Assembly (NCBI RefSeq): GCF_006716565.1
Contig: NZ_VFPG01000001.1
Span: 372,001 to 436,000, forward strand
DNA from: Nocardia bhagyanarayanae
Lineage (GTDB): Bacteria > Actinomycetota > Actinomycetes > Mycobacteriales > Mycobacteriaceae
Direction: 5' to 3'
Length of the DNA stretch: 64,000 bases
The notes under the pieces were generated by a model, which searched no databases, was not told the origin of the DNA, and saw nothing but the letters and a program-made list of their open reading frames with translations. Both the position numbers and the translations under genes were made by a program. Positions 1,774 to 57,489 of this stretch are shown here, in pieces (the stretch's first letter is position 1; the number at the start of each line of letters is the position of its first letter).

Positions 1774-1790
1774 ATGTCCCCCGCTTCGCG

Positions 1791-3907: not shown

Positions 3908-3926
3908 GTAAATCTTTGGTGCCGCG

Positions 3927-8079: not shown

Positions 8080-8153
8080 TCGATCCGCGCATGTCCGGCG
8101 GTCGGTCACCGCGCAACCATGTAGTGAGAAGACCCTTTTCGGAGGTGGAGTAC

Positions 8154-8556: not shown

Positions 8557-9070
8557 CGGTGCCGTGGCAGGTGCGGCACAGGCCTTGGCCGTCGCATTCG
8601 TAGCAGAGGACGGCGCCGTCGCTGACGGTGTCCGGGGTGACGGCCGGGGCGGGGCGGGCAGGCGGGGGATCCGGCTGGTAGAGCTGGATGTTGGGGGTTT
8701 CACCGAGCAGGACGATGCCGCCGTAGCCGTCCTCGATGCGGGCTTGTAAACGGTAGCCCTCGCGATCGCCTCGCACGATGACGACGGCCGGGGCCTGCGG
8801 ATCCCGCTGGACCTGGACGGCCCAGCCCGCGGTGTGCAGCACCTGGGCGGCGCGGTCGGCGCGGGACGGATCCGGTGGGCCGGACATGTTGGCGAGGGCC
8901 TCGAACCGATGGCGGGGCGGATCGGCCCAGTCCACCTGGCTGGGATGCTTCGGAATGACCACGTACGGTGTCGACCCGGGCACGAGCTGGGCACCGAACC
9001 AGCGCATCTGGCCGCGGAGGAACTCTGCGGAGCGGTCCAGCCACTCGCGCACGCCCTCGATCTCCGCCAT
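8408..9070 (-). CDS. CxxC-rich (DnaJ-like zinc ribbon) protein coupled to the giant gene
   Basis: Predicted 220-aa cytosolic protein. The ATG (9068-9070) shares its A with the TAA of the giant gene (TAATG), so ribosomes ending the giant gene can restart here. Residues ~1-135 form an alpha/beta domain (REWLDRSAEFLRGQM, then ...TPYVVIPKHPSQV), reminiscent of YbjN/TY-type chaperone-like folds. A proline linker and four CxxC knuckles (residues ~156-203: CYEC, CRTC, CRNC, CPTC, with GxG after most) follow, the arrangement of the DnaJ zinc-binding domain. The layout suggests a dedicated chaperone or adaptor for the giant protein; an immunity role is an alternative. A truncated copy of its 3' end lies at 7847-7990. 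Confidence 0.65.
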   Translation of the reverse strand: MAEIEGVREWLDRSAEFLRGQMRWFGAQLVPGSTPYVVIPKHPSQVDWADPPRHRFEALANMSGPPDPSRADRAAQVLHTAGWAVQVQRDPQAPAVVIVRGDREGYRLQARIEDGYGGIVLLGETPNIQLYQPDPPPARPAPAVTPDTVSDGAVLCYECDGQGLCRTCHGTGWTKAPTATGRHRCRNCQGARVCPTCGGAGELRITELSEDDRIHYPHIP

Positions 9071-12000
9071 TACCGTGCACCACCTTCGAGATCTGCCGTT
9101 GCCGGACGGTAACCGGCGGGCTTGTACACGATCACCATACGGTCGGTCGGCTGCGGCGGCGAGTACTTGGCCATGGCGTCCGGGTTGAGCACATTGCTGG
9201 CGCCGGTGTCGATGGTGAACAGGTATTCGTCGCTGCCGTCGCCCTCGAACTCGGTGTGCTCGATCACCTCGAAGGCGGCCGCGAGCGAGGGCGGCAGCAC
9301 GCGGCTGATCGCGAGCATGAGCTTGTCGCCCTGGATATGCCCGCGGTCGCCGGGTTCGCCACCCTCCACCAGTTCCGACTTCATGTCCCACTGGATTTCG
9401 ATGTGCGCGCCGGGCACCAGGGTGTGTGGCAATTGCCGGGCCAGGGTGTCGTAGTCGGTGTCGCCGTAGTGGGCGCTGACATTGTTGATGTAGTAGCGCG
9501 CCACGCCGCCGTTGCCGCCGACATTGAGCACCGCGCCGTGCAGCAGGAAGTCGGCCCACACCATGAGCGAACCAGGGCGGGTCAGCGGACCGGCGTCGAG
9601 GATGCCGAGGTTGCGGCGGCGCTGGCCGGCGTCGGCGTAATCCATGGGCAGTTCGGTTTGCAGGACGAGGCCGCGACCGGAGGTGTCCTGCGGGGGCGTC
9701 AGTTCGACCGCGAACCCACCGCGCCCGACACCCACGTCCACGGTGTGGCCGCCCGCGACCGCCGCGGGCACCGACGGGCGCGGCACGAACCGCACCGGAT
9801 GGCTCTGCTGGGCGGGCACTCGATACTGCGCGCGTGGACGTGAGAGCACGTCGACCGAGGATCGGCCGTTGGCCTCGTCATGGATCACCACGACGTACTC
9901 GATGTCCAGACCGACCGCTTCGGCGCCGCGGTTGGCCCGGTCCATGGCGTGGAAGAAGTCGAGCATGGACATGGTCTGCCCGCCCGGATGGGTGGCGGTG
10001 GTCGGGAAGTACACCTGGCCGGTGGACCGATCGAGCAGGCCGCCGACCCGATCCGGCATCTGGGTGTAGGCGCGGGCTGCCTGCCGCATCCGTTCGAAAT
10101 CGATGAACCGGTTGATCTGCTGCATGTGGCCCGGGGTGTTCTGCACCTCGGTGATCGCGGCCTCCAGCGCGGACCGCCGCCACTCCGGGGGCATCGGATC
10201 GTTGAAAGCGCGTTTGATCGGGGCCAGGGCGGCGACCAGGTCGTCGGCGCTGAACAGTTCGGCCGCTTCGAGCTGTTTGCGGATGGCGCTGACGTCGCGG
10301 TTGGCGAAGATCGGCTCGAACAGGCGGCGGCACTGTTCCTCGCGCATCCGGGCATTGAGCGAAAGACCTTCCGCCATCAGCACTTCGGCGGCGTGCTCGC
10401 CGGTCAGGAAGCGCGCCAGCCTGCCGAGGTGGGTGAGCGCGGCCTCGTGGAACGCGGGGTCGGTCAGTGTCTTGCCGAAGACGGGCCGGGAGGCGACGGC
10501 GCCACCGTATTCCAGCCCGATCCGGCGGGAGAGCTCCGGATCGTGGGCGGCCAGCGCTTCCGCCGCCGGACCGACCGGGTGCACGTCCATGCCCAGGTGG
10601 GCGATCAGGTCGTCGAAATCGGCCCGGATCTCGGCGGTCAGCTTGCTGCGGGCGGGGTCGAAGATCGACTGATCCAGCTGAGTGGCGAGCACTTTCAGTT
10701 CCGCGAAGCGCGGACCGGGGTGCTGGAATCCGGGGTCGGTCAGCTGCCGGATCCTGGTGAGCATGTGCGCGACCGCCCGAGGCACGTCCCGGGTGCGCAG
10801 CCCGTCGGACAGGATGATGTCGAACGCCGCGCCGCCGGGACGCAGCTGGAAGCTTCCGGCCTCATCGCCGATGGTGCTGTCGACCTGTACGTGGACGGTA
10901 CGGCCGTCGGGAAGCATGAAGTGGCCGTCGCGGTGCCAGTCGGTCTCGGGGGGCATGATCGCGCGGAGCATGTTCTGCACCGCCTGCCGGGCCACCTTGG
11001 TGGTCAGCACGCCGTCGTCGGCGGTGCGGCCGTTGCCGTCGAAGTTGCCCAGGCCCTCGATGATTTCGCCGAAGCCGTCCGGCAGGACGACGGTCTCGGG
11101 TTGCGACGGCTCGAGGTATTCCGGCCCGTCGTCATCGGGCTCGGAATCGAGGTACTCCGGTCCCTCGACCTCCCGGCCCGGCACGACCGCCTCTGGCAAC
11201 GACGGATCCGCACCGAGGTACTCCGGACCCTCGACCTCCCGCCCCGGCACGACCGCTTCCGGCAACGACGGATCCTCACCGAGGTACTCCGGACCCTCGA
11301 CCTCCCGCCCCGGCACGACTGCTTCCGGCAACGACGGATCCGCACCGAGGTACTCCGGACCCTCGGTACTCGGCGCGCTGGGCAGGATCTGGGTCGGCGA
11401 CAGCGGATCGGAGCCGCCGAGACTCGATTCGCTCGACTCCGTGGACGGGCCGGACACCTGCTGCGTGGCGGTTTCGGGCTCGACGGTTCCCGGCAGCTCG
11501 ACACCGGGCATGGTCTGCGCCTGATCGAGCTGCTCGGCGGGGGCGACACTGGTGTCGATCATGGTCGGTGGGTGTGGCACCGCGGGCGTGGCCGGTGTGG
11601 GAATCGCGGTGATCGTCTCGGCGCCCGCCACCTGCTCGGCGGCCGGGTCGATACCGAGCTTGTGCGCGATCCGGGCCACATAGGTGGCCACGGTGTGCTC
11701 GGAAATTCCCAGCGCTTCGCCGATTTCGGCGTTCGACGCGCCGTCCAGACGCCGGGTGCGCACCTCGGTCTCCCGGGGGCTCAACCCGCCGTGCCCTTCA
11801 CCGGACGACGGCCGGAGGGCGACCTCGGCATCCATCGGCAGGATCCCCGCCCGCAGCGCCGTCGCCACCATGCCCGCCCGGCTGCTGATGCCCAGGATGC
11901 GGCCGATCCGGACCAGGTGGTTCTTCACCACGGACTCGGTGGTGTCCAGGGCCAGACCGACCTCTTTGTTCGACCAGCCGTCCGCGACCAGCGCCAACAC

Positions 12001-15000
12001 CTCGAGCTGGACGGCATCCAGCGCGTTCGGCCCCAGCCCGCCTTCGATCTTCGCGGCGACATCCGGCTCGGAGAACGGCACCAGGCCCCGGCGCACGCCG
12101 ATCGCCGCAAGCGCGGCCCGATCGCCGGTGCCGAGCTTGTTGGCGATGCCGGTCAGGTGGGTGTGCACGGTGGCGTCGGCCATCGTCAGCCGCTGCGCGA
12201 TCTGCTTGTTGGTCAGGCCCTCGGCCACCAGCTCCAGCACTTCGGTTTCCCGGGCGGTGAGGTCGGTGTGGGTGATCAACTGGTCCGGATGGGCCGCCCG
12301 GTCGGCGGCGTGCTCGGTGCTCGGCAGCAGCGCTTTTCCATTGGCGCCGTATGTGATCGCGGAGAGCTTGCGAGAGCCGGGGGTGACGGTGCCCGGCACG
12401 TACTCGTGCCACGCGCCGTTGTCGATGTTGGGATCGCTGACCATGACCTTGCCGTGGTCCAGCCGCATCATGGACAGGTGCGCGACCTCCATGTCGCCGA
12501 TCGAGTACTCCTCGACCAGCAGCATCGCGGTCGCCGGATCGTCGGGGTCGGTCAACCGGGCGGCGGCCGCGTCCCTGGAATCGATCTGCCGCATCCGGCC
12601 GTGCGCGTAGTCCTCCTCGACCTCGAGCGCGGTCCGGCCGGACAGCTTCGACTCGGCGGGGACGGTGACATCGAGCCCGGCCTCGTCAGCGGTGCGCATG
12701 GTCTGGCGGACGCAATCCTCGGCCATGGGTTCCGGCCTCGGGGGTCGCGCGACCGGCTGCGGGTCGGTGAAGGCCGAGCCGCCGTCGGTGCTGTCCGAGC
12801 CCGTGCGGGGCCCGCTGTCCATTGGCTGCGCCGACGGCGGTGGGGTGCCCGGGCCGCTCGACTCCCGCCCGAGTACACGATCGGTGAAACGCCTCAGCAG
12901 ACCCTTCTTCGGGGCCTCGTCCTCGGATTCCGCTGCGCGGCTTTCGGTCTCGGCTTGCGGCGCTGTTGCCGTCTCGGGCGCCACCGCGGTGTCCCCGGCC
13001 TGCGCAGGCGCAGGAGTGCGCGCGGCGATCAGCGACGGCGAGACCAGCGGCGCGATCCGTGCCGACCCGTCCTGGAGCAACTGGGCAAGGTACTCGGTGA
13101 GTTGCAGTGGGCTGGTCCCGGCCAAGCCCTGGAACCACACGGACAGCACATCCGCCGGATGACCGGAATGGGTCGGCGGTGCGACCCGCCAGCCGCCCGC
13201 GCCATCGGCCTGCAGCCGGACGACGAAGTGCGCGGCCGGGATCGGCAAGTCCTTCTCGACGACCTTGCCCGCGGGACGGGCGGATTCGCTGTGATCGCGG
13301 ATCGGCAGCGGAATCTGGCGGGTGACCATCTGGTGGGTGACCACGGCGGGATGTGGCTCGGTGATCGACGGATCCGCTTGCACCATGCGGAAGCCCACGT
13401 GTTCGAAGCCGTGTGCCAGCGTGCCGGTGCCGTCGTCACGGGCGGCGATGAAGGCCTCTGGACCGAGCAACTCCAGCCACTGCTGAATCGAGAGATCGAA
13501 GGTGAACGACGGATCCAGCTCGGCCCGCAGCCGGTAACGCAGATAGCGGTTCAGCATCTGCGGCGCGACCTCGTCGTACCCCGGCGCGCGGAACATGCCT
13601 TCGGCCTCGTCCGGGAGCATCTCCGCCACCACGACCTCGCCGTCGGGTCCGAGGGTGACCGACAGGTATGCGAGCTCGTGCGAGCCCCGCCACAGCACGC
13701 CATCCCAGTCCGGCTGCTCCAGCTCCAGGTCGCGCAGCAGGTCGACGTGCTCGCCTGGTTCGGCGAGGACCAGCAGGCGTGCCTTGTCACCGCCCGGATG
13801 CGGCGGGAGCAGCGCAAGCCGGTCCGCGAGCGGGCCCGCGTCCACTACCCGTCGCGCGCCGGGGTTTTCGGCCAGCACGCGAGCCATTTCCCGGCCGAAG
13901 ACCGCGGCATCGATCCCGGGCGCGGCCGACTCGAGCTCGACGGCGATGGCCGCTTCGATCGCGGCATCCAGTGCGTCGAGCGTGAGGGTGCCCGGAGTCT
14001 CCTCGGTATCCCACGGCAGGCGTCGGTTCAGGTCCTCGCTGGCGAAGCGAGCCAGGTCGAGCGCGATCTGCGCATCCGCAAGGCCGGTGTCGCTCAGGTA
14101 CGCCTTCATCGCCGCGAGACGCGCCGCGGTGGTGTCCTCGGCGGCCAGATACGTCTGCTCGGCCGGACCGCGCGGTACGAACACACCCTGGGCACGCTGC
14201 CGCATCAGCTCTTCGACGGCCTCGACGAAGCGGGCGGCCTGCTTGTCCAGCTGGGCGTCGGTGAGCTCCGCGGCGGCCGCGTGCTCCGCGACCGCCCCTG
14301 GGACCGCCGCGACGGACGGAATACCGTGCGCGCGATCCCATTCCGAGCCGAAGAATTCCGCCAGATCGACGCCGTCGATCAACGGGCCGTTGGCGGCCAG
14401 CTGCTCGCGGATCGTGCGGGCCGCGAACCGGTAGGCCATCGCGTGCATCGCCGCTTTCGGCACCTGGTTGTCGTCGCGGAGATTCGGGTAGTCCGACTCC
14501 ACCGTGTAGACGTTCCGCAGCACATTCTCGGCGCGGTCGTAAGCGGCGTGGAAGGCCCGCGCCAGCGGACTACTGGTGTAGCGGCTGTACCCGCTCATCT
14601 CGCGCCGGTGCTGGAAACGGCGGGCTTCGGCCTCGGCCCGCAGATCCTGCATCGCCGCCACATAGTGGCCGCGGCTCTCGGTCAGCAGAACCAGCGGGTC
14701 ACCGCCGGACGAACGCGCCGCATCCGCCAGGTAGGCGGCGACGACCAACTGGTCGGCGTTGGATATCGGACCGCGGCCGAAGGGCAGCACGAGGGTGTTG
14801 GTGGTGGTGTCATAGCCCGCTTCGCGCGTCAAGTTCTCGCGATCCATGGACCCGGTCGACCCGGTCGACTCGAAACCGAACCGGATCCGGACGTTGAGGC
14901 GCTCCAGCGTCCGCATGGCCCACCGGCCGGTCGCCGTGGCCTGCAATTCGGCCCGGACGACGCTCATTTCGCTGTTCGCCGTCTTGTCCAGCGACGGCAG

Positions 15001-18000
15001 CATCGACCGATGGGCGATCTCCAGGTCGTCCGGCGGAACCTCGACCCGGTCGCCCGGGCGTCCGTTGATGGCGGCTATCCCGTTCTGAATCGCCGCGTAG
15101 CGCGCCCGCGCCCGCTGCCACAGCTCGGTGAGTTCGACCAGCGCACCCACCTGCTGCCGAGACTGCAAGGCCCACATGGGGATCGCGGCGCCACGGAAGT
15201 GGTCGTACATGGTGTCGATCACGAAGCGCAGCCGCGCCGCCAGGTCGGTGGTGTCGGCCATCGCGTCGACGCGGGCGGGCGTCATCGCGCTCATCTGGCT
15301 CTGGACCCGATCCCATGCGGTCTCGAGAGCGTCGATCTCGCGCTGCACGGCCGCGCCTTCGCGCATCAGACGCTGCCGGGCCCGCACCTGCTCCACCGTC
15401 AGGTCCAGGCCGCGGCCCATGTCCTGCCTGCTCTGCCACTGCCCCTCGAGGGTTTCGCGCAGATCCGTTGCCGTGAACTCCGCGCTCTCCAGCAGCGCGT
15501 CGACTCCAGCCATCCGCCGAATCCGGTTCGCCAGCGCGTCGTCGGTGCCCGGGGCCACCGGCGCCTCCGCGTAGGCGGCGCGGTAACGGGCGAACAAGCC
15601 CTGCCGGAGCGCCAGATCGGCCGGGTCGGCGCCGAACAGATCGGTCCGGGCGAAACCGGCTTCCTGGATCTGCGAATCGAATTCGGCCTGCCAGGCGATC
15701 GCCGTGGCTTCCGTGCGCAGCCACGGCTGCACGAACGCGTCCCGATCCATATCGCGGATCAGCATCGGCTCGGTTTCCACCGCATCGGCGGCGACAGCTT
15801 GCATCCGCGCCGCGTGCGCGAGGACCTGCTCGGCCACTGCGATCAAACCGCGTCCGGTGGTGTCGATCGTGATCGCGCGGACTCGGCCGTGGAAATGATC
15901 CCGGTCGCCGAACTCCACGTGGGCCTCGGCGTTGTGCAGGACCGCCATGGCTTCCTGGCCGATGGCGGTGCGGAACAACAACTCCCACACCGGGTGGGTG
16001 GCGCCCTCCGGCTCACCGGCGACCGGCGGTCCGAGCAGCGGGTCCGGTGGTTGCGTCCGGAGCTGCACCCGTGTGGTCCGCGGCTCGTCCGCGAATGGGT
16101 CGTTCGGATCCGGTTGCGCAGGCCCCTGATCCGACGGGCTCTTGCCGATACGCAGTTCGCCGTCGGGCAGCGGGGCGGTGCGGTCGCCGACATTCTGGAC
16201 GACCTGGCCGTCGCGCCACACGACCGCCCGCGTGCGAGCGGTCTCCGCGCGGGAGCTACCGGTCAGCTCGGCCAGTGCGACGCGGTCGCCCGCGGCGGTC
16301 CGGAACCAGGCAAGGCCATCGGCGTCCGGGCTGCCCTCGTAGGTGACGCGCTGTCCGTCGACCTCGAAAACGTTGTCGCCCAGGTACTTCACCGTGTACG
16401 CGTGCGCACCGATTCCGGTCTGCTCGTCGGCGGTGTGGCGCTGGTCGAGCACCCAGGCCATCGCCCCCGGCCCCGCCCGGTGGATCAGGCCCTCGATCAG
16501 ATTCGCGTGCGCTTCGTGCGCCCCGGCGGTATCGAACCCTTCCGGCCCGGCACCCCGCAGCAGCCCGCGCACCTCCCGCCACCGCCGCCCGAACGGACTC
16601 CGCGTCCGCTCATCCGGCAGGCCGGCCACATCACCCTGATCCGCGACGACTCGGCCCAGCGACCGATCGACACAATCGGCGATCGGCAGCGCGTCCGCCG
16701 CCGGATTCGACGGAACCGGCTGCGAGGCAACGGCATCCGGCTCACCGAACTCGTGCCCGCCGTCGGCCTGCGGCCCGTCGGCCGATACCGCCGCGCCATC
16801 GATCGGCCGGGCGGTCACCCGCGGATCGTGTGCGGCGCCATCCCAGCCGCGAAGTCCCTTGGCGACCTGCGCGATTCCCTCACCCGTGAACGCCGACGCC
16901 GCGGTGGCACCGACGACGCCGCCGACCCCGGCGGCGCCCGCGGCCTTCCAGTCGACGGCACCGGCGATCCCGGAACCCGGGGCACCGGCGGCGTCCCCAT
17001 CGACCTCAGCCGGGAGATTCGCGGCCATGCCCGCACCGGCCACCGCGCCGGCCCCAGCGGCGGCTGCGGCATCCCAATCGACCTTGGCGGTGCCCTCCTG
17101 TGCCGGGATGTTCGCGGCCATGCCCGCACCGGCCACCGCGCCGGCCCCAGCGGCGGCCGCAGCATCCCAGTCGACGGCGCCGGCGGTGCGCGCCAGGTCC
17201 AGGCGGATCGGCGGCACTGTGCCGGTGCCCTTCGCCAGGTTGTCGTCGTAGTGGACAGTCTGGTCGGACAGCGCGTCGAGGCCGGTGGGCGCGTGCGCCG
17301 GTACGGGCAGGTTCGACAGGATCTCGGCCACGGCGTGCAGGATCCGCGCCGACTCTGGGTTCGGCATTAGTTCGGCGAGGGCACGCAGGCGTTCCGGTGC
17401 GACCAGGCCGGCGATTCGTCCGGCGTCGGCCGCCGCGTCGAACGGTGAACCGCAGGCTTGCCACAGGGTGTGCTCGTGCAGGGTCAGTTCCAGCGTGCCC
17501 GCGTGGTCGCCCTCGTTGGGCACCCGGACCGGCAGCAGGATCTCCGCGTGCTCGCCCTGCGGCAGCATCAGCCGGAAGGCCTGCCACAACGTCCGCAGGT
17601 CCGCGTCCGCCGCGAAGGCTTGCGGATTGGTCTGCGCCCAGTCGGTCAGCCTGGCGGAAACGAGCTGGTTGACGCCCGACGGCGGCGAGAGCTCGACGAT
17701 GCCGTGTTCGTTGAAGCCGCGCGCCATGATCAGCCATTTGAGCGCGTAGGCGGCTTCGGCGTAGGCGGCGCGGGCCTCGGTCGGGTCCACAGCCGGCGCG
17801 GATTCGGGACCGACGGCAGGGACTTCGGCGGGGACCAGTACCGCGGTGAGAATCGTGTTGCCGCGCACCGCGAATCGACCGTGCATCTCGGTCAGCGGCA
17901 GTCCGTCCTTGCCGGTGGCCTCGACCATCAGCTGCACGTGGAAGGTGCCTGCCTCGATATCGAAGGTGACGCGCGAGTTCTGGAAAACGTGTCTCAGGCG

Positions 18001-21000
18001 CAGGCTCTGGTCCCCGGTCAGGGTGTACCAGGCCTTGAAGATGCTCTCCTTGGCGGAGAACAGCACCTTGTCCCAGGCCACGCCGGAGTCCGGCAGGCAG
18101 TCCAATTGTTCCTGCACCCAGAGCAATTCCTCGACACGGCCCACGCTGGAAATGGTCTGGCGGATCGATCGATTGTTCTCGGCGTCGATGCCCACCGACC
18201 GGAACCGCGCCGAATCGCCCACGACCGCGGCGTAGTAGGTGTGCTGGGTGGCCGGGTCGATCGTCTTGTTGGTGAGGCTACCCACCAGGTCGTCCGGGAA
18301 CACCGGCTCGCCCAGCGGTCCGCGCCCCACCGGCACGCCGTGGTGACCGCGGCCCGCCATCGCGCGCCGGGCCGCGGTTCGCGTGTTGGCTTTTTCCCGC
18401 ACCAAGAACGGCGACGATTTCTCGTCCAGGAGGATGGCGGCTTCCTCCGGCAGCAAAGTCGCGGTCGGATCGTCGCCGATGATCTCGCAGGTGGACAGTT
18501 CCGGCAGCAACCGACCGATGAGCGAGCCCACGGATTCTCCGTCGACGAGCACACCCGAGACGGGCGCCGGGCCGGTCTCGTAGGCGCGGTTCTTGCTGGC
18601 GTCGACGCCGAGGTCGGCGGCGTCGAAGATGTCCTTCGGGGTGAGGCCGGGCAGGATCTCGGTGACGCCGACGTGCAGGCCCAGGCCGCGGTATGCCGCG
18701 TCGCCCGGGCGCTTCGGATGCTCGATCAGGTCCAGCCCGTGCTCGGCGGTGTAGGCGGCGACCCGGGCTTCGATTTCGGCGAGGATGCCGGTCAGTGTTT
18801 CCTGATCGATGCCGATGACGACGGCGGACAATTCGTCACCGCCGGTGCGCATCGGCACGACGGCGCCGCCCGCCGCGTCTAGGGCATAACGGAACGCCTC
18901 CGCGATGCCGCGGAAGTGCACGTTGGCGGCCGCGGCGCGGTTGTTCATCGCCGCGTTCAGTCCGCTGAGATTGGCGATATCGGCGGACAGGTAGAACGCG
19001 GGCACCCCGGTTTCGGCGACGAACCGCTGCGCGCGCATCACCTCGGCGGTCTTCACGCCGGAGAGCCGGGCGTCGTAGAAGTCGGTGACCTCGTCCCGGG
19101 CGACCGGGCGATACATCGCCTCCGCCACGAGCTCGGGGGTCAGCTCACCCAGGGCGTGCAAACCCTCCGCGAATGCGAAGCGGCGCAGTTCGTCCGGCGA
19201 CGGGTAGCCGGCGAGCGCGGCGAGGTTGCGATTCAGTCCGCCGAGGGCGAGTCCGCGCGGCGCCGCTCCAGGTCCGCTCGCAGCTCCGCTTTGGCCGCTG
19301 CTCGCTTGTCCGCCAGTTCGCGTTCCAGTTCCTGGATCCGTCGTGCCCGCTGTTCCGGTGTCAGCCCGGTCAGTCCCAGTCGCTCGTCGCGGGTCTCCTG
19401 CGACATCGGTCCTCCCGTTCTTGCTGTCGTCGACGCCGAGGTCGGCGGCATCGAAGATGTCCTTGGGGGTCAAGCCGGGCACGATCTCGGTGAACCCGAC
19501 ATGCAGGCCGACACCGCGGTAGGCCGGGTCGCCCGGATGCTTCGGGTGCTCGATCTCGCTGAGCCCCTCCTGCCGAGCATAGGCAGTGACGCGCCGATTC
19601 ACCTCGGCGACGATCTCGGTCAGTGTCCGCTCGTCGATGCCGAGCACGATCGCGCCGACCTCGTCACCGCCGGTGCGCATCGGGATCACCACGCCGCCGG
19701 AGTCCTCCAGCGCGGTACGGAACGCGGTGGCGATGCCGTGATAGTGCGTGTTCGCCACCTCGGCCTGGTTGTTGCAGAACGCGTTGAGGCCGCTCAGGTT
19801 GGCCACGTCCGCCGAGACGAAGAACGCGGAAGCGCCGGTGTACGCGACGAAGTTCTGCGCACGCAGCACCTCCGCCGTCTTGAGCCCAGACACCCGCGCG
19901 TCGTAGAACTCGGTGACCGCGTCCCGCCCGACCCGCTCGTACAGCGCATCGGCGACGGCCTCCGGCGAGGAGAGATCGGTCTCGAAGACCTTCCGCTCGA
20001 ATTCGGCGCGGTGCACGTCGTCCGGGGACGGGTAGGACTTGGCCACCTCCTCCGGGGATCGGGTCGAACCCGACTCGGCAGCAACGATATTCGTAGTCGT
20101 TTGCTTATCGGAGTCGGCTGCCGGATCGGTCCCGGGCTGCCAATCGAGCTGAAGCAGCCTCTGGTAGAGGACGTTTTGCGCTGTGGTCGCCGCTACGGGA
20201 TCGAGCCGGACCGCGGCGTAAGCCTCGGCATAGGTTTCGTAGACGTCCAGGGAGCCGTCTGCCTTGAAGCAGTAGCCGGTGAGCTCGACTTTCAGCCACA
20301 GCTTGAAGAGCGTGGCGAAGAACGGGTCCGCCGCGTCATGCTGGACGCCCCATCTCCCCTTCAAGTACTCGCGGAATGCCGCTTTCAAGTCGTCCTGCGC
20401 TTGCGCCCAGTCCGCGTCGCGGGCCGCCACGGAGGCGGTCCGGCCGCCCGCGGCATGCATGGCGTGCCCGAGCTCGTGCGTGATCACCGTACGCACCGCC
20501 GAGTAGTAGGCCGGACCGACCGAGAAACGGTAGGCAGCGTTTCGCCGGACCCGCTGGTGGAGCAGATCTGGGTTGATGGCGAAGCGCTCGTTCAACACGA
20601 GAACCACTGCGGTGGAACGCATCCCGGGAACCTCGGAGCCCACGAAGTGCGTGTGGGCCAGCACCTGGTCCCCGAGCGGAGCGATGTCGAGCGCGACGAC
20701 GTCGAGCGCCGGGTTGGCGCGCAGCTCCTCACGAACCGTCTTCAAATAGTCCCGGAGTGTGTAGATGCCGACATCGGGGATGACCGCGCTCGGTGCGCAG
20801 ATATTGGTTTCGGCCGTGAACGCGGCCGCCTCTGCCAGCGCCTCCCGGCGCTGCTCGGCGAACGCGGGATCGACGGGCGCGGAGGCGTCGTATGGAGTGC
20901 GGCGGTGCCATGCGGCGGCCTCGCGCTGTAGCAGTTCGAACAGCGTGCGCTTGCCGTCGGTAGCCGGTGTGCCGTCCGCCGCTTCGCGCTTGACGGCCTG

Positions 21001-45000: not shown

Positions 45001-48000
45001 GAAGCCGCCCGGCTGGGCCCCGCGCAGCATCGGCCGCACGTCCTGCCAGTCGAAGCCGGACAGGTTGCCTGTCACCGGAATCGGGACACCGACAATATCG
45101 CCTTGATCGGCCAGCACGCGGCTGAGCGAGTCGGAGACACAGGTGTTGATCGCCGCCGGGCCTGCGGGATCGATCTCTCTGGTGTAGTAGGTCACCAACG
45201 CCGTCAGGGCCTTGATCTCGGCGTCGGTCTGGCGGACCTGGGCGCGCAGCTGCTGGTGCAGCGCGGTCAATGTGCCGGGGTCGCGGACGAACAGGTCGGC
45301 GAACTTCTCGGCCTTGAACTTGCCGAAGGCCGCCTTGTACTGCGCGTCGGTGGCGTTGTAGATGTCGGCGCCGTGCAGGCGCACCCAATCCTGATCCGGC
45401 ACCGGCACTCCCGGCACGGTGGCGGGACCGGCCAGTGGCAGCTGGGCGAGCAGCCGATCGGCATCCGCGATGAGCGAGGCCAGGTGTGCGGGGGCGTCGG
45501 CCAGGTTGATCGGGGCGATGTCGTCGGCCACCCGCGGATCCCGGGTGAACAGCTCCGGATCGGCCTCCAGCTGCTTCAGCAGCGCGTCGATCTCCTTGGC
45601 CAGCTTCGGTTTCGCGGTCTTCAGCGCCTCCAGCGTGGCCTTGGGGTCGGTAGCCAGGTCGGCCCGGGAAAGCTCCAGCTTGTTCAGCGCGGTGTCGAGC
45701 TTGTGGTAGGCGTCCAGGGCGTGCAGGTTGCGCGCGTACTCGACCAGCGCCTCGATCTGGGCGGCGCGCACCTCGTTGTCGAAACGCAGCCGCTCCAACG
45801 TGGCGTCGATCTGGCTCGGGGTCAGATCGATCCGGCCGATCGGCAGTCGACCAACCAGTTCGGTGATCGCGGCCTCGATTTCACCGCGCGACATGCGGGA
45901 CAGGTCCAGCGCCGGGCCACTCGGCTCCGCCTGCGCCGGATCGGCGACCGTCTGCCAGGGGCCGCCCTCGTAGCGCACCATGGTGACGGTCAGGTTCCGG
46001 CCGTCGAAGTCTTCCGAGATGTGGCGTACCGCCGGCGAATCCACCGCCGCGGTCGCCACCCGCCACGTGCTGCCGACCTCACGTGGCCAGGCCACGCGGT
46101 ACTCGACCTCGAGGCTGCCGTTGTCGATCAGCTCCACCAGTTCGGAATTCGCCGGGTCGGCGAGCGCCTTCGCCAGTGCCGCGTCGTGATTCATGGCGTT
46201 GTCGATGACGACCAACTTCATCGGCGAACCGACCAGCCCGACGCCCGGATGGTTGGCCGGATCGATCAGGAACCCGCCGCTGACCCGAATCCATTCGCTG
46301 CCCGCGATATTCGCCATCACCTCGGCGTGCTGACCGAAATTGTCGTCGGCGTCGAGGACCTGCTGCGCCTGCCGCTGGAACGCGGTGACCGCGTCCTGGA
46401 GGTCGGTGAGCCGAGTCTGCAACTCCGTCAGCGCATTCGGGCTCTCGGGGTCGATGCCGAGGATGTGCGCGCGGTGGTCCAGCTCGGTGCGGATGTGGTG
46501 GCGGCGCAGGGCCTCCTCGAAGAACCTGCGGCCCGCAGGCGTGTCCCGGTGCGACAGGTCCCACCACTGGCGGCCGCCCTGCATGTTGTTGTTGACGCCG
46601 GTCCAGCCCATGAGGGTCGCGCGACCGTTCCGGGCCGCCTCGACCTCTCGCGCGTACCGCTCCAGCGGGCTCGGACGGTTGATGACCGCGGCCGGTAGCA
46701 GATGCGACAGGTCGATATCGGGCAGGAAGGGAATGTCCGCGTTCTCCGCGTCGTACCGGGCCAGCGCCGCCTTGAACGCCTCGGCCGAAACGGCTTCGCG
46801 GGTCAGCAGATACCGCGCCTGATCGATGGCGGCGCGCACCGACTCCGGGCTCAGGTCCGGCAGTTCGATGCCGAGCGGGCCCGCCAGCGCCAGCAGCGCC
46901 CGCGCCTGCGCGTCCAGCTCCTGCGCGGCCTGCCGGACCTCCTGACCCCATTCGGCGAGCTCGTCGTGCGCCAAGGCCGACGGATCGTGTTCGGCGTCGG
47001 CGGGGACCGGCGGTTCCAGCGAGGCGTCGATTCCGGGCGCGGGCTGCGCGGCCGGAAGTGCGGGTGGCGGGGGCGGTCCCGCGAGGAAGCGGTCGGCCAG
47101 CCCGAGACGGCGGAGTTCGGCCTCGTTCTCGCTGATCTTCCGCGGGTCGGCGTCCTCGCGGGCGTAGTCGTAGACATCGCCGGTGCGCGCGACGGGTCCG
47201 TGCGACTCCGCCGACCTGACCTGGCCGAGCAGGAAGGCCTTGATCTTCGGCCAGTTGCGCTTGAGATTGACCACCTCGCGCACGGTGAACGCGGGGTTGG
47301 CCTCGAAGTTGCCCCAGAAGTCGCTGTCGGCCAGCTGACCGAAATTCTGCACCGTGAACGACTGGCCGAGCGGGACGATCTCCGACGGCGGATGCTGCGG
47401 GTTGACCACACCCTGCCGGTCCCGCAGGGTCTGGATGACGCCCGGGTCCGCCTCTGGCGCCTTGACGATCGCGGCGGTGGCCACGTCTGGGGCGGGCAGG
47501 CGGGTGGCCGGTTCCACACGCCAGCCGCCGGAACCGTCCGGCGTCAGCTGGACCGGGATACGTTCGCCGCCGACCTCCAGGTCGATCCGCACGGGCCCGC
47601 CCGGTCGCCGACCCGCCTGCCACACCTGGGTGACATCGGCCAGGTCCACGATCGCCTGGGCGCGGGCGAGTGTCTCGGATCGCAGCCGCTCGAGGGTGTC
47701 GGTCAGGTTCGCCGGCGACAGGCCGTCGCTCGGTATCCGGAGCAGCTGGGCCCAGACCTCGGTGATCTTGTCGATCTCGGTCTGCTGCTGCGGGTCCAGC
47801 GCGCGATCGCGGCGGCCAAGGGCGGTGGCCAGCGCCTCGATAGCACCGGCGCGCAACAGGATTCGATAGCGTTCCTGCGCGACGGTGGTCGCCAGGTTCG
47901 CCGGATCGCGCTGCTCCGCCGTCAGATTCAGCTGATCGGCGAGCGAGGCCTGAGCCTGCTGCATGGTGAGCGGGCGCGGTGGGTCACTCGGATCCGGCGG

Positions 48001-51000
48001 CGACACCAGCGGCCCGGCGATCGCGTCGGGGTGGGCGAGCGGAATCGCCGGCGCGGGCTGCGTTTCCGGCGGTCGCCCGATCGAGCGCTGGAACGCCTCG
48101 GCCGCGTCGCGCGCGGCGAGGAAATCGGCGTCGGACGGATCGGACGGGTAGCGCCAGTACCGCTCCCCCGGGAACTGCTCGTCGGCGGTCAGCGTGTCGA
48201 AGTTCGTCGGGAACAGCATGTGCTGGTTCGCCAGGCCGTCCGGCGATGCGTCCAGGAAGCGGCGGGCCAGCGCCATCTGCGACAAGTCCTGGAGCGCGGA
48301 CTGCGGATCCGGCAACGCCCCGAGGGTTTCCGCGAGACCGAGGCGCTCGGCCAGTGCTTGCGCGTAGGCCAGGTGCGCGGCGGAGGGCTCGGCCCCGGAT
48401 TCCGGTTCCGTACGCAGACTCGGTGTTTCGTCGAAGAACCGCGCCGCCTGATGCACCGGGTCCTCGGGCCGGCGCGGCGCGGGCGGATCCTGGCCGACGC
48501 GCAGATCGGCGTCCGGCATCGGACCCTCGTCGCCGAGACCGGGGACGTGCGCGTCGTTCTGGAAGATGCTCGCCCAAGTGGCGGCGGTCTCCCCCGTTGT
48601 GCCACCGGTCAAGTCGGCCAGCGACTGCGGATCGGTGCCGCCATTGGGGCCGAGGTCGAACAGCTGCTCCTGGCCGTTGTCATCGATATCGGCGAGCAGA
48701 ACCCGCTGGCCGTCCACGTCGAAGACGTCACGACCCAGGTAGGTCACGGTGTAGGCGTGGCCGCCGACACCGTAGTCGTCGACGGTGGTCCGCTGGTCGA
48801 TCACCACGGCCGAGGCGCCACGGCCCTGCGCGCGCAAGGTGGTCAACAGGCGGGCGTGCGCGCCGCCCTCCTCGTTGGGCAGGAATGCCCGGGGCTGCGC
48901 CGCGCCGAAGTGCGCGGACAGGTCATCCCACGCCACACCGCTGATCCGGCCGGGATCGACGGCGAACCCGCCGAGCACGTTCGGGTGCCGCACGGCGAGC
49001 TGGTCGAAAGCCCTCGGCACACAGTGGTTGGTGGGCGTGCCGCCGGTCGGCAGGCGGTAGTAGGTCTCCGAGAGCGCCGCCAGAGCGGCCAGATCGGCGG
49101 CATCCGCGCGGACGTCGGCGCGCAGTTCCGCCAGCGCCTCGGCGATCTGCGCCGGCGTGCGCAGCGCGGCCGCATCGAGCTTGCCCGCGCGGAAGTTCCG
49201 GTAGATCGACTCCAGCTCGGCCGGGGTGGCGGTGTCCAGATCGACGCCGAGCAGGTGCACCCAGTCGGCGTCCGGGTCCGGGATGCCGGGTACCTCGCCG
49301 GGCAGCGTCTGGCCGTGCCTGGCGAGCGCCAGGAAGTCCGCCAGATCGTCGACGAGCAATCCCACCTGGTCGTGGGCGTCGACGTGATGCATCGGCAGGC
49401 CACCGGGCCGCAGCTGATCCTGCGCGTCGTAGAGGTTCGGATCGAAATCGATCAGCTCGGGGTTCCGGTTCAGCAGCTGGGCCAGGGCATCCAGCTTCTT
49501 GGCCCGCTCGGGATGCCGCTGCTTCAGCTCCTCGAGCGCCTCGAGGGGGCGCCCGCGCAGCTCGGACCGGTTCACCTCGGCCTCGTGCAGCGCGCGCTCG
49601 AAGGCGTTGAAGCGGGCCACATCCGCGTGCAGGCGGGCCAGATCGGCCATGGCCTCGATCCGCACCGCGCGCAACCGGTTGGCGGCGCGCGCCGCGTCGA
49701 GGGCGGGTCCGACACGATCCGGAGCCAGATCGGCCAGCTTCACACCCTGCCGGGCCGCCGCGTCCTCCACCCGGGCCACCAGCTCCGCGGTCGACAGCGT
49801 GGTGGGGTCGGGCACCGGAATCCCGTTGTCCGGCGGCGTGAGCGCGTTGTCACTGGGGATGGCCCGCCAGGGGCTGTCGTCGTTGTCGCGGACCATGGTC
49901 AGCTCGAGCCCGCGCCCGTCCAACGCACCGGAAAAGTGCCGGACCTGCGGCGCGTCCACCTCGGCCACATGGATTACGCCGGTGCGGTCGGCCCAGGCGA
50001 CCCGGTACTCGAGCTCCAGCTCGCCCTGGGTCAGCATCTGCGCGATATCGGTATTGCGCGGGTCGGCGAGCGCGTTGGCCAGCTGCTGGTCGTGATCGCC
50101 GCCGTCGTTGATCACCACCAGGCGCTGCGGATTGCCGTCCAGCAGGCCGATTCCCGGCGCGTTGTCCGGATCCAGCAGGTCACCGCCCTGGTCGAGCAAC
50201 CACCGGTGCCCCGCCGCGGCCGCCATCTCCTCGGCGATACGGGCGAACTCGTTGTCGGCATCGGTGTAGGCGGCCGCCAGTTGCGCGAATTCCGTTGCCT
50301 CTCGCGCCAATTCGGCGGCACGGTCGTGCAGCGCGGTCAGCGCGCGTGCGACATCGGCCGGACTGTGCTTGGCCGGATCGACATCGAGCAGATTGGCCCA
50401 GGTGCCCAGTTCCGCGCGCACCTGTTCGCGCTGCATCGCCTCCCGGAACGCCTCGCGGGCCTCCGCGCTCGGGTTGCCCTCCGGATCCCACCAGAGCTTC
50501 AGCCGCGTCGGATTGTTGTTGACGCCGCTGGCTTCGGAGTCCGCACCGGGCAGACCGTCCGCGATGGATTGCTCGCGCATGTAGCGCTCGAGCGGATCGG
50601 GACGCATGTCGTTGGTCGGCAGATAGCCGAGGCGCTCGTTCTCGTTGTGGAACCGCGTGGCCGCCTGCGCGTACGCCGCGGCGGCCGCGGCCTGCCGCAT
50701 CGCACGGTAGTTCGCCTCGCCGACCGCGGTGCGGACCGCGTCGGGGCCGAGGTCGGCCAGCGAGAGCGACAGCGCGTCCGCGCCTTCGTAGAGCGCGATA
50801 CCGGCGGCATTGCGGGCGGCGATGGCGTCGCCGAGTTCCGCGCCACGGCGCGCCAGATCCGGATCGGGCGCCTGGCCTTGCGGTTCCGCGTCCGCAACCG
50901 GCGGCACCACGTCCTCATCGATACCGGCGCGCTCGTCGGGTGCGACCGGATCGGGCGCCTGCGGCTCACCGATCTGGGGACCGTCCGAGTAGCGGCCGGT

Positions 51001-54000
51001 GACCAGGGCCCAGAACGCCTCGCGGCCCTTCCACAACTTCGACGCCTGCAACGCGAAGAACGCCGGATCCCAGTTGAACCCACTGACATTCGCCGCCGCG
51101 TCACCGGACAGCAACTCGATCTCCGCGCCGAACGCGTTGTAGAGATCGCTGTTGTTCTCCGAACCGAGCGCGTACTGGATCGGCCGGCCGGTGCCGTGGC
51201 TGCCGAGGTGGGTGCGCAGGAACTTCATCGCCCGCTTCCACCGGCTCTGCGGTTGCCCGTCGGGGTCGCTCGACGAGTCCGGCACCGGCACCGGCGGCGG
51301 CGCCAGCGGCTCGGCGGGCCGCACCCGCCACCCTCCGGAACCGTCGGCGGTCAGCGACACCGGCACCCGCTGACCGTCCACCGCCACCGTGTACCGGCGG
51401 GTCTCGCCCTCGGCCACCTGGGTGGCCCGGCCCTTGACCTCGTGCACCGCCTGGGCGACATCGGCCAGATCGTTCAGCGCGACGGCACGGGCCAGCACGT
51501 TGTCGCGCAGCCGCTCCAGCGTCGTGTCGACCTGCCCCTCAGCCAGGTCGCTTTCCGGAAGCTGGAGCAAACGGGCCCAGTGATCGGCGATCTTGTCGAG
51601 ATCGATCTGCTGGTCCGGGTCGGTGGCCACGGCGCGCCGGGCGAGGGTGTGGGCAAGCGACTCGATCGCGCCCGCCCGCAGCATCGTCCGATACCGCTGC
51701 TCGGCAATGGTTTCCGCGAGATTCTCCGTCGTCACCCGGTCGGCGTTCAGTCCCAGCTGACGCAACAGCTGCGCCTGCGCCGACTCCGGCGCGAGCGGAT
51801 GCGGGGCCCGGGAATCGGGCCGGGCAGGCGCGGGCCCCAGCGCGGGTGCGATCGCGTCCGGCACGGCGATCTGCATGGCGGGCGCCGGCGCATCGGAATC
51901 GACCACCGGCAGCGCGTGGGCTTCGTCGCGCCGCCCGGCGAAATTCGAGTCGCTCGGATCCGGCGCGTAGTTCCAGTACCGCTCGCCGAGATGATGCTCA
52001 TCGATGCTCAACGGAGCGAAATCGGCCGGACCCATTCGCTCGTTCATCCGCCCGGAAACCGGTGTCGGGTCGAGGAATTTCCGCGCCCAAGCCATTTGGG
52101 CCAGATCCGCGAGAATCCGGCGCGGGTCCGCCAAGCTCGACAGCGAGTCGCCGAGGCCGAGTGCCCGCGAGAGGCGGGTCAGGCGGTCGCGGTCGGCGTC
52201 GGTCAGCGGGGACAGGTCGCCGGTGCGGGCCGGGCCGGGCCCGGGGACCGGGCCGGTCTGCGGACCAGGGGCCGGTTCGGAGGTCTGCCGCGCCTCGGGG
52301 GCGGGCTGTGCGCCCGGGTCTGGGGCCTGCTGCGCGGCCGGATCGCGCTGTGCTTCCGGATCGGGTGTTCGCTGCGCCTCGGGATCGGGCTGCGCGCCTG
52401 AATCCGGAGCCTGCTGCGCATTCGGGTCCGGCTGCGCGCCTGACTCCGGAGCCTGGTGCGCATTCGGATCAGGCTGAGCACCCGGATCCGAAGACTGCTG
52501 CGCATTCGGATCAGGAGTTTGTTGTGCTCCCGGATCAGGCCGCGTACCCGGGTCCAAGGCCTGCTGCGCCGCCGGATCGCGCTGTGCTTCCGGATCGGGC
52601 GTTCGCTGCGCCTCGGGATCGGGCTGCGCGCCCGGGTCCGGAGTCTGCTGCGCATTCGGATCAGTCTGAGCACCCGGATCCGAAGACTGCTGCGCCGCCG
52701 GATCTGGCTGCGCACCCGGATCGGAAGTCTGCTGCGCCTGTGGATCAGGCTGCGCACCAGGGTCCGGGGCCTGCTGCGTATCCGGGTCGGGGGTCTGCTG
52801 CGAATCCGGTTCCGGCGCAGGCTGGTTGGCGCCGCGCTCTTCGTCGCGCCTCCGCTGCTCCTCCTGCTGTCGCTGTTCGTCCAGGAAGCGCCGGAGATCG
52901 CGCATCGGATCCCGCCGGCCCTGATCGTCGCCGACCCGCGGCAGGTTCCGATCGTCGTCGTCGTGGCCCTGGGTGGCGGCGCCGACCGCGAGCGGGCGAA
53001 CAGCCAACGGGCGCACGGCGTTGCCGTCCGCGTCGTAGACCATGACCCAGGTCTTCTTCGCGTCGGGCAGGTTGCCGGGATCGAACTCGACCGGGCCGTC
53101 CGGGTGCTTGTACGGGTCGTCGACCATGATCTTGCCGGTCTCGGCGTCGTAGTACATGACGTACGCGTGCGCACCGACACCGTGCTCGTCGACAGTTTGG
53201 TTCTGGTCGACGACGATGACCGTCGCCTTGCCCTTCATGAAGTCCAGCGCCTCGGCGATCGCCTTGTGCGGCGACTTGCCCTTGCCGACCTTGACCTCGG
53301 TCACCTGGGAATCGGCGTGCTCTTCGAGCCTGCGCATGGACACACCGTCCAGGCCGACATCGGTCGGCACGGTGATGTCCGGGTTACCGGTCCGCTGGCG
53401 TGCCCGGTACAGCGCCTGCTCGGAACACCCGTTCTCCCGCAGCGGGGGCCGATCGGTGTCCAGGAACGACTCGTTGTCGGGCGCTTGGAATTCGGTGGTG
53501 CCCGCGGCGATGTTCTCCAGCCGGTACATGCGGTCGACCGGCACGCCGTTGTCCGGCGGCTTCGGGCCGGTGGTCTCCGAGGCGTTGAACTGGTGGAACA
53601 GGCCGTTGGCGCGATCCTGGATGTGCACACGGACGTCGTCGCCGAAGTGCTTCTTCCGGATCAGCGGATCGTCTTCCTGGCCGGAGAAACCGATGAGCAC
53701 GACGTCGTCGACCAGGCGCTCCAAACGCCCCTTGTGGCCGGAGGATTCGACGACGTCGACGCCGTAGCCGCGCGCGACGATCTTGTTCGAGACCGCGATC
53801 TCGGGTTGCCCCTGCGCCACCCGCTCCGCGTTGAGCGCTGCGCGGGTCGCCTGGAACGCCGCCAGATCCCGGGCGAGCAGCTTGCCACCCTGACGGGCAT
53901 GCCAGGTGGTCATGGACTGGGCCTTGTTCGGCGTGCCATAACCGACCCACGCGATCGAGGCCGCCGACTCGCCCGGGCGTAGTCGACCGGCGGTCGCGCG

Positions 54001-57000
54001 GTACTGGCTCGCCATCTCGTTCACGGTGCTGCCGATATTGGCCAGCGACGCGTCCCGGCCCGGGACGTGCCAGGACAACAGGGTCGCGGCGTCGACCTCG
54101 CCCATGGCGATGGCCGCCCGGCCGCTGCCGTTGAACGCGGTGGAGTCGAAAGCCATGACGTACACGGGCGTGTTCGGCGCGACAGTTAGGGCCACGCCCT
54201 GCGCCATGGCGATCGCCTCGCGGGTGCGCAGCAGGTTCACCAACTGCTTGTGCGAGGCGGAGTTCAGCTTGCTCTGCCGAATCAGACTCTCGAGCTCGTT
54301 CTTGACTCGCTCGACCGTCTTCGCGGCGTCGGTGCGAGCCTCTTTGATCCGCTGTCTGGCTTCGGCTCGTTCTTGGGCGGCCCGACGGCGGGCCGCCCGC
54401 TTCTCCGCCCCGCTGCTGTCCGGATTCACCTGTGTCCGCGCCCGCGGCTGCTCGGCTTTCGCCTGCGCCAAGGCCGCCGCGGCCCGCTCTTGCCGGGCCA
54501 GCAGAGTCGCCAACTGCGCCTGTTGATCTGTGGTCAACCCGCTGCGGGCGATCAGATCCTGCGATTCCCGGACGATCTGTATCCGGTTGGCGGTGTCGAC
54601 ATCCGGTGCGGGAATGCCCGGCGCGTTGTTGCCGAAGCTGGCCGGATGCACCCGGAGCAGGACCTGCTGCTGCTCCGGCGTGAGCGAGTTCCACCGCTCG
54701 GAGTTCTTGCGCGCCAGCGCATCTATCTCGGCCTGCGTCGCCTTGGGACCGATCTGGAAATCGGCGGGATTCGGCTTGCCCGCCATGCTGTCGAGGATCT
54801 CGGCGGCCTGCTGCTTTTCCGCGTCGGTCGGTGGCCTGGCGTCGGTCACCCGGCGCGGGCGGGCGTTCTCGTCGGTGCCGGGATTCGGGTCGGCCGAATC
54901 GTCCGGCTGGTTCTGGGTTTCCGGATCGTTGTCGGGATCCGTGCTGGTGTCGGGGTCCGAGCTGGTATCGGGATCCGTGCTGGTGTCCGGATCGGTGCTG
55001 GAGCGTGCCGGAGCCGGGGCCGCTGGGGTGGGCGGCGGAGGTGGGAGAACCAGCGCGGAATCCTCGTCGACATCCGGACGCGCCGCCGAATCTTCGTCGC
55101 TGTCCGGACGCGCGGGCGCATCCTCGTCACTATCGGGACGTGCCGGAGCATCCTCGTCGCTGTCCGGTCGCGCCGCCGGGTCCTCGTCACTGGCGGGGCG
55201 AGCGGGCGCATCCTCGTCACTATCGGGACGTGCCGGAGCATCCTCGTCGCTGTCCGGTCGCACCGCCGGGTCCCGGTCGCTACGGGGACGCGCGGGCTCA
55301 TCCTCGTCGGTGTCGTTCTGTGTCGCCGGATCCAGGGTGCTGTCGGTCCGCGCCTGGGCGACCTGCGGGTCGCTCTCCGGTGTGACCTGCACCTGGCCGT
55401 CGGCGTCGCTCTCCGAGTCGACGGTGGTATTTCGTTGCGGTGCTTCGGTATCCGAGATCTGAGTCTGTACCGGACTGGCCGGGGCCGCGCCGGGGGTTGC
55501 GGCCTGAGCGGACGAGCCCGCGCGCGACGCGGGGGTCGACGCGGCGTCGGTGCTCGGGGCGACGTTGGCCGTGCCGTCGTTGAAACCGGCGACGGAGGTG
55601 TCCCCGGCGCGAGGCATACCGGGCAGGTTGGGCGTCGTCGGCCGCCCGGCGCCCGGCTGGCCGGTGGCGGTGCTCGACTGGCCAGTTGCCGGAGACGTGG
55701 AGGTGGACCCCGGCGCGGACGACGAGCTGCCCGGCGCGACACTGGACGCACCCGTGCTCGTGGACGCTCCCGGCGCCGATGTGCTCGCACCCGGCGCTGC
55801 CGACCCAGGTGCGGCCGCCCCCGGCGCGGCCGCACCCGGCGCGATCGTTCCGGCCCCGTTGGTGGCGGTGTTCGAGCCGGCGTTCGGACTCGAGTTGCTG
55901 TCGCCCGAAATGCTTGCGCCAGCGCCGATTTGGGAGTCGCCCAGCGGTGAACCGGCGAGGTTGTTCACCGCGCCCGGATCGGTTACCGGGCTAACCTGCG
56001 CGGCCCCCGCACCGGGATCCGTAACACCCGCACCCGAGTCCGAAGCCCCTGCGCCCGGCTCCGAAACACTCGCTCCAGCACCGTTATCCGACACTCCCGC
56101 GTTGGGATTGCTGGCGGCCGAACTCGAATCGCCCGCCTGCGGAGCCGAATTGCCCTGGTTCGCACCGGCGTTCGATGAATTGCCGTCGGTTGCGACGGCT
56201 TCCGGTCGCTGCTGACCTGCCTGCGGTCCAGCGCCGGTCTGCTGCTGGTTGTTCGCGCCTGAATCGGCGGCACCGGCCTGCGGGGCGTTCGTGTCCTGCC
56301 CGGCCGGCGGTGCGGAGGTATTGCCGGCGCTGGCGGCGTTCGTGCCCGGGCTGTTGTCCCCGGCCCCGTTCTGGTTCCCGGCGCCATTCTGATTTCCGGC
56401 GCCGTTCTGGTTTCCCGTGCCCGAGTTGTCCCCGGCGGGATTGGCGGGATCGGTCCCGTTGGTCGGCTCACCTGGCGGCGCGGTGCCGTCCGGCGGGGTC
56501 ACGTTGAAGTTCCCGCCGCCGATGTTGGGCCCGCCCAAGTATTGACGGTTGCCACGGAAACTCGACGCGGCGGACGGGACCGCACCGGAAAGGCCGCCAC
56601 CGACGAACGCGTGCGGAGTGAACTCACCGGTCAGCGCCCACGCGGTGCCCGCACCGACAAGACCCGCGCCGGTACCCACGAGCGCGCCACCCAGGGCGCG
56701 GGTCCACCGGTTGTCGCTCGACATCATCCGGTTGAGCGCCGGAATATGTCCCAGGCCATAACCGGCGCCACCGCCCGCGGCGCCCGCCGCGAACGAGACA
56801 CCCACGTTCTTCAGGTAGCCGCCCCAGTCGAAGGGCTGCGACTTCAGGCCCTCCGCCTTGAGGATGTTGTGGATAGCGGCTTCCTCGATGGTGGTCTGGA
56901 GGACCTCGACCAAGCCCTCCTGAATCATCTCGTAGACGACCTTGGCGATGACGGTGCGCGCCGCCTCGGACAGGAAGCGCTGACCGATGATGCGGGCGAT

Positions 57001-57489: not shown

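Follow-up and report, generated by a model that had tools for sequence, protein, structure and literature searches.

The window analyzed here is a 64,000-nucleotide stretch of the Nocardia bhagyanarayanae genome (contig NZ_VFPG01000001.1, positions 372,001 to 436,000), which holds on its minus strand a giant reading frame of 16,139 codons (Table 1). The only stop in the frame is the terminal one; about 225 chance stops are predicted from its own position-specific base composition, and the other five frames of the same region carry 34 to 309. The G+C content at third codon positions lies between 0.81 and 0.90 in each 1000-codon block, and the longest antisense open run, of 2,508 codons, is explained by the usual effect of high G+C content. 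A previous sequence-only reading of this DNA had proposed 48.4 kb without an internal stop, protein-like composition throughout and a CpnT-type N terminus. All three points hold; the Pfam model PF25547 (WXG100_2) matches the N terminus slightly above its cut-off (29.9 versus 27 bits). We regard it as confirmed that this is one real, very long coding frame.

The same frame is open in three more Nocardia genomes, with 14,395 (G084), 14,538 (G083) and 19,807 (G115) codons. The ratio of nonsynonymous to synonymous substitution rates (dN/dS, Nei-Gojobori) was 0.331 against G084 (12,551 aligned codons), 0.352 against G083 (12,907) and 0.470 against G115 (12,280), the highest value of any single window being 0.76. 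Since windows without a BLAST match were omitted, these values are averages over approximately 76 to 80% of the chain; in some of the variable windows, the modules aligned with each other may be paralogues. The ratios point to purifying selection in the head, in the tail and in every aligned window between them.

Relatives are widespread in the genus, where the head (residues 1 to 340) was matched in 108 of 118 genomes (E ≤ 1e-5), and the matches listed include at least 21 head-bearing frames that measure 10,000 codons or more between stops and are spread over 14 of these genomes. Ten frames were read, namely this one, those of G084, G083 and G115, the paralogue beside it, three of G051 and one each of G089 and G088. 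Nine span 14,240 to 40,807 codons and the tenth 10,828. The size, which the sequence-only reading had called exceptional for an actinobacterium, is surpassed within Nocardia itself by unbroken frames of 33,513 (G089), 36,589 (G088) and 40,807 (G051) codons, lengths counted from stop to stop, while the 14,240 of the paralogue are counted from its ATG. In the single-contig genome G051, three giant frames of 40,807, 10,828 and 15,942 codons lie in tandem on one strand (G051:C1:1856633-2062110, approximately 205 kb). In G088:C1, head copies of equal score (85.5 bits) occur at 712318, 2067078, 2953302, 6935810 and 7974672, in frames of 17118, 32451, 648, 644 and 36589 codons, each close to a homologue of the 540-residue protein described below; these equal heads in different frames suggest that one head was recombined onto different cargo. 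In a family-wide draw, the head was matched at 1e-10 in 20 of 251 genomes, all Nocardia (the only one of the 31 genera, with 8 candidates per genome scored), and a plasmid search with it gave no match. PF13332 matched neither the own genome nor 14 control genomes and was uninformative.

The common head and tail are found on chains of approximately 1,900 to 19,807 codons, and the cargo between them is swapped among species, shrinking to about 1.9 thousand residues in small relatives. The last 660 residues, which matched no family model, show 94 to 95% identity to those of the two closest genomes and 67% to those of G115. Variation between species sits in the middle of the chain and not in a variable C-terminal toxin domain. 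The middle contains internal repeats, and a large share of it has no recognized domain. In searches against PDB sequences, the sole match to residues 1 to 4200 was a repetitive surface protein of malaria parasites, caused by a low-complexity stretch, and residues 3901 to 8200 had none. Tandem repeats of 42 and of 30 to 90 bases (window 52285-52824 and 55060-55308) encode low-complexity linkers of the chain.

Nine papain-like domains are interspersed in the chain, all of which keep the Cys and His residues. Across 12 chains searched, 170 such domains scored above 15 bits (best reversed decoy, 8.5 bits) in 11 chains, with up to 35 copies per chain; the Cys is aligned in 151 and the His in 152, and in a smaller, earlier set each was aligned in 100 of 105. 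Only the Streptomyces protein P0002 had none. PF15644 exceeds its cut-off (25.5 bits) in one piece of the 40,807-codon G051 chain, and a PDB sequence search with the papain-like parts gave no match. Within the order, the profile matched 7 of 298 genomes (one genus of 76), a count that probably includes misses because just 11 candidates were scored per genome. These domains fill 4 to 19% of each chain and hold 164 of the 358 cysteines in 11 chains (224,357 residues). Overall, cysteine makes up 0.16% of the giant chains versus 0.63% (77 of 12,317) in neighboring open reading frames picked mechanically, and the paralogue has 4 cysteines in 14,240 residues, 3 of them inside papain-like domains. 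The domain end tends to read [I/V/L/F]-G, followed by a Pro/Asp-rich linker; in the 105-domain set the Gly is present in 78, with a gap there in 6, and the residue before it is Ile in 52 cases and Val in 19. The nine internal Cys-His domains are a concrete candidate for cutting the chain, and the Ile/Val-Gly tail motif a putative cutting site.

Among the cargo modules, the sigma region-4 helix-turn-helix (HTH) motifs, the three LuxR-type HTHs, the PF06259 hydrolase (these three all over cut-off) and the PptT-type transferase are firm domain predictions, the Pfam ACPS and 4PPT_N models scoring just below cut-off on the last of these. There is good support for a SigF-like sigma factor over regions 2 to 4, which also matched FliA in the PDB sequence search (2.4e-4), and moderate support for the SCO1664-like kinase part, the cyclase-like module and four RsbW-like folds. 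The GGDEF-like pair and the metalloprotease and nuclease modules are tentative; the kinase-like and metalloprotease-like parts found no match in PDB sequences. The RsbW assignment is held at moderate because it comes from VIA-align and an iterated hidden Markov model (HMM), and Pfam left three of the four sites unconfirmed. That model gave 26 matches in 8 of 12 chains, with later matches having helped to train it. The floor was set at 14 bits, reversed-chain decoys scored up to 9.5 bits, and the three weakest matches lie at 14.6 to 16.6 bits. An AlphaFold model of residues 4600 to 5740 was poor (pLDDT 43), and Foldseek with it found nothing at E ≤ 0.001. Absences in long pieces were disregarded, since Pfam and NCBIfam scans of long pieces missed domains found in short ones. 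Where the sequence-only reading had seen many enzyme-like modules and recognizable domains throughout, several modules with the best support are regulators (sigma, HTH), and large parts of the chain match no known domain.

Regulator cargo is found again in the 40,807-codon G051 chain (20 of 36 pieces), where PP2C, LacI-type, LuxR and sigma-4 HTHs, PF06259, PF15644 and DUF2332 exceed their Pfam cut-offs and HATPase and 4PPT_N fall below; 10 of the 20 thousand-residue pieces scanned gave nothing at 0.01. Taken together, the sigma, anti-sigma and PP2C parts are reminiscent of the partner switching known from bacteria. This regulatory bias, more than any single match, suggests a bacterial target. 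The possibility that the cargo was freshly copied from host genes was rejected for the two modules tested, as the nearest own-genome copies are a PptT-like protein at 36% identity and three sigma factors at 24 to 27%. P0002 (Streptomyces sp. NPDC055886, 6259 residues), the relative of the cyclase-like module, is itself a giant protein from an actinobacterium and carries two cyclase-toxin-like domains in tandem; its PF03497 is a precomputed domain, and the module of the giant chain has no Pfam match of its own.

Upstream of the giant gene lie, in order, the 540-residue gene, the 105-residue gene and the YbaB-like gene. The TGA of the latter ends 16 nucleotides before the giant's ATG, and no clear Shine-Dalgarno sequence was seen before that ATG; three orthologues share both the start and the sequence preceding it. 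The short gap fits translational coupling, making plausible what the sequence-only reading had supposed. In a test of 29 loci (L006 left out), 26 have a YbaB-like relative no more than 1.5 kb upstream of the head, and same-strand relatives of the 105-residue protein occur in 13. Relatives of the 540-residue protein repeatedly adjoin head genes; a role as specific immunity protein is unsupported, as it is nearly universal in the genus (116 of 118 genomes). The giant gene is flanked by ESX genes and a second giant gene, past which lie adk/secY/ribosomal-protein-like genes (by eye). The ESX cluster, comprising EccC, EccB, a subtilase taken as mycosin, WXG100, EspG, PPE and PE, falls within approximately 22 kb of the giant's stop, its EccC gene (359.8-362.9 kb) being about 18 kb away. 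Two full EccC genes (G000:C1:322830-326300 and 359787-362894) lie about 36 kb apart, probably marking two ESX clusters near the giants. A 709-residue minus-strand frame without a Pfam match (window 5573-7702) separates the ESX genes from the giant gene.

Table 1. Features of the window, by position; residue i of the giant chain starts at window position 57492-3i
Feature	Residues	Position	Strand	Remark
ESX genes EspG, PPE, PE		17..2087	(-)	
Giant frame		9070..57489	(-)	ATG start, 16,139 codons
C-terminal constant domain	15480-16139	9073..11052	(-)	methyltransferase-like fold ~15887-16125
Three LuxR-type HTHs	15065-15290	11620..12297	(-)	GerE 1.9e-34, 3 stretches, over cut-off
Papain-like domain 9	14918-15082	12244..12738	(-)	Cys + His kept
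J-K unit	13810-14820	13030..16062	(-)	
Papain-like domain 8	13598-13791	16117..16698	(-)	Cys + His kept
PptT-type 4'-phosphopantetheinyl-transferase-like module	12985-13230	17800..18537	(-)	E 2.1e-28 to 6qwu, solved PptT-family chain
GGDEF-like repeat pair	12460-12971	18577..20112	(-)	tentative; no Pfam match; NF040885 E 0.0059, far below cut-off
HExxH metalloprotease-like module	11960-12440	20170..21612	(-)	by eye; no Pfam or PDB support
RsbW-like ATPase domain	11600-11694	22408..22692	(-)	PF13581 E 0.0016, below cut-off
Papain-like domain 7	10648-10824	25018..25548	(-)	Cys + His kept
Array of sigma region-4-like HTHs	9965-10550	25840..27597	(-)	
SCO1664/PI3-4-kinase-like module	9555-9900	27790..28827	(-)	TIGR03843 3.8e-9, PF00454 0.01, both below cut-off
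SigF/FliA-type sigma-factor-like module, regions 2-4	9205-9460	29110..29877	(-)	SigF model E 8.9e-12, below curated cut-offs (short piece)
Sigma region-4-like HTHs	8808-8950	30640..31068	(-)	
Restriction-endonuclease-like stretch	8000-8130	33100..33492	(-)	by eye; UPF0102 E 0.052; not established
Papain-like domain 6	7597-7810	34060..34701	(-)	Cys + His kept
RsbW-like domain, end of D copy 2	7510-7605	34675..34962	(-)	iterated HMM; no Pfam HATPase match
Helical (CC) + D unit, copy 2	6629-7599	34693..37605	(-)	48-70% identical to copy 1 by segment
Papain-like domain 5	6441-6640	37570..38169	(-)	Cys + His kept
RsbW-like domain	6046-6132	39094..39354	(-)	iterated HMM; no Pfam HATPase match
Adenylate-cyclase-toxin-like module	5445-5700	40390..41157	(-)	PF03497 relative; 36% identity, E 4e-41 to P0002
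Papain-like domain 4	5238-5440	41170..41778	(-)	weak fold match to AvrPphB/SpvD
RsbW/SpoIIAB-like fold, end of D copy 1	5152-5246	41752..42036	(-)	
Helical (CC) + D unit, copy 1	4290-5240	41770..44622	(-)	internal repeat
Papain-like domain 3	4109-4301	44587..45165	(-)	Cys + His kept
A-B-C unit, copy 2	3053-4102	45184..48333	(-)	internal repeat
Papain-like domain 2	2815-3009	48463..49047	(-)	PF15644 E 0.0015, below cut-off (20.1 vs 24.1 bits)
A-B-C unit, copy 1	1780-2810	49060..52152	(-)	internal repeat
Papain-like domain 1	1347-1529	52903..53451	(-)	Cys + His kept
Alpha/beta hydrolase-like domain PF06259	1121-1271	53677..54129	(-)	E 1.1e-11, over cut-off
N-terminal constant domain, WXG100-like		56455..57489	(-)	PF25547 at residues 43-150
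YbaB/EbfC-like partner gene		57506..58000	(-)	164 residues from likely start; PF02575 4.7e-7
105-residue protein, candidate WXG100-like partner		58077..58394	(-)	no Pfam match
540-residue protein between the two giants		58583..60205	(-)	YezG-like 0.036 only
Second giant gene, C-terminal tail		61388..64000	(-)	14,240 residues from ATG at G000:C1:476110

Overall, with somewhat better than even confidence, we read the frame as one ESX-exported multi-effector polyprotein of the polymorphic-toxin kind, possibly self-cut and acting mainly on bacterial regulation; its export, cutting and target are inferred from sequence. The chain would be translated in coupling with the YbaB-like gene, kept unfolded and cysteine poor, led by its head into the ESX machine for export, and folded outside or inside a target cell. 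There, the papain-like domains may cut at or near the Ile/Val-Gly motif and free the cargo. The released SigF-like sigma factor, RsbW-like anti-sigma folds, sigma-4 and LuxR HTH arrays, PptT-like transferase and cyclase-like module would then disturb transcription and signaling, most plausibly in other bacteria. A cyclase toxin would, however, also suit a eukaryotic target, and the paralogue has no papain-like domains past approximately residue 2,720, which counters a general cutting rule. A bolder form, which we hold to be doubtful and distinctly unlikely as a whole, is that the secreted polyproteins of Nocardia, reaching some 40,800 residues, process themselves: each would leave through ESX as one giant, cysteine-starved chain and be cut at conserved Gly sites by its own papain-like domains, and the resulting sigma-control kit (sigma, anti-sigma, PP2C and HTH arrays) would reprogram the transcription of a rival bacterium.

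The papain-like domains might instead be payload, that is, glutamine deamidase or protease toxins on an ESX-exported chain that works in one piece or owes its cleavage to mycosin or the target. The family carries the Pfam name "Papain fold toxin 1, glutamine deamidase," most Tox-PL1 versions treated by Zhang et al. (PMC3482391) in the relevant passages are toxins, and the paralogue runs over 11.5 thousand residues without such a domain. Nevertheless, payload would not obviously be interspersed between cargo units, at up to 35 copies per chain, or carry a conserved motif where the linker begins, and we consider this explanation rather unlikely, if a serious one. It is quite improbable that the chain never leaves the producing cell and serves there as a giant signaling scaffold tuning the cell's own sigma factors. 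The SigF-like sigma factor, the RsbW-like folds, the PP2C of G051 and the HTH arrays do look like partner-switching parts, but the WXG100-like head, the ESX neighborhood and the cysteine depletion argue otherwise, as does the distance of the modules from their own-genome copies, which alone would not suffice to exclude it.

We give similarly little credence to the frame being coding but made as several shorter products from internal starts. The mRNA would be very long and contains 701 in-frame ATG or GTG codons, yet Shine-Dalgarno-like matches (≥6) are not enriched before them (6 of 701, versus 6 of 392 and 1 of 112 out of frame), and conservation extends to the frame and its two ends; the first argument is weakened by the giant's own start, which has no such match either. 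An assembly artefact or a decaying gene is strongly disfavored, for although internal repeats with segments 60 to 73% identical in protein could mislead assembly, the frame is shared by four genomes, no N occurs in the three fetched or in any fetched stretch of giant frames, dN/dS is well below 1, and giant frames are present in single-contig genomes.

CpnT of Mycobacterium likewise begins with a WXG100-like domain and is preceded by two small genes, and the giant is approximately 19 times longer. The proposed ESX/CpnT-type effector stands as regards the head and the ESX neighborhood, but not as CpnT proper, since no TNT NAD-glycohydrolase was recognized at the C terminus, which is methyltransferase-like. 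The two small genes upstream encode a YbaB-like and a 105-residue protein rather than clear EsxE/EsxF partners. In MARTX toxins, too, constant ends enclose effector modules that can be exchanged, and a cysteine protease lies inside the chain. They differ in type I export as opposed to an ESX neighborhood and in one processing protease as opposed to many papain-like domains; neither RTX repeats nor an inositol-phosphate-induced protease matched Pfam in our scans, which were less sensitive on long pieces and covered part of the chain again in short ones. P0001, a 7,559-residue hypothetical protein of Nocardia sp. NPDC049707, shares the head, the D unit and four papain-like domains (63% identity over 74% of 1,141 queried residues) at half the giant's length, and no published description of it was found.

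The kind is already known, as the relevant passages of Zhang et al. 2012 (PMC3482391) describe giant multi-toxin actinobacterial proteins and Tox-PL1 in WXG proteins, there a toxin or in some versions probably a releasing peptidase. With the type VII secretion system/WXG polymorphic toxins carrying Tox-PL1 outlined there, the giant shares a WXG-type head, an ESX neighborhood, papain-like Cys/His domains and several effector-like domains; it differs in its constant C terminus and exchangeable middle, its many papain-like copies, its sigma/anti-sigma/HTH cargo and frames of up to 40,807 codons. The Streptomyces multi-toxin protein, as far as its description goes, is likewise one chain with several toxin-like domains, but its caspase, ART, lethal-factor-like and MCF1 domains were not recognized in the giant. 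A survey of huge proteins (PMC11573180) lacks the word Nocardia in its main text, and among the open-access titles and abstract beginnings listed, no account of these chains was seen. What sets the giant apart from the known kind is the constant tail, the many papain-like copies per chain, the regulator cargo, the cysteine scarcity and the size. Nine of the ten frames read rank among the longest known in bacteria, raising the question of how an ESX channel handles a megadalton substrate and whether it is cut en route. If the regulator cargo is indeed delivered, these chains would represent a class of weapon acting through sigma-factor control rather than plain destruction.
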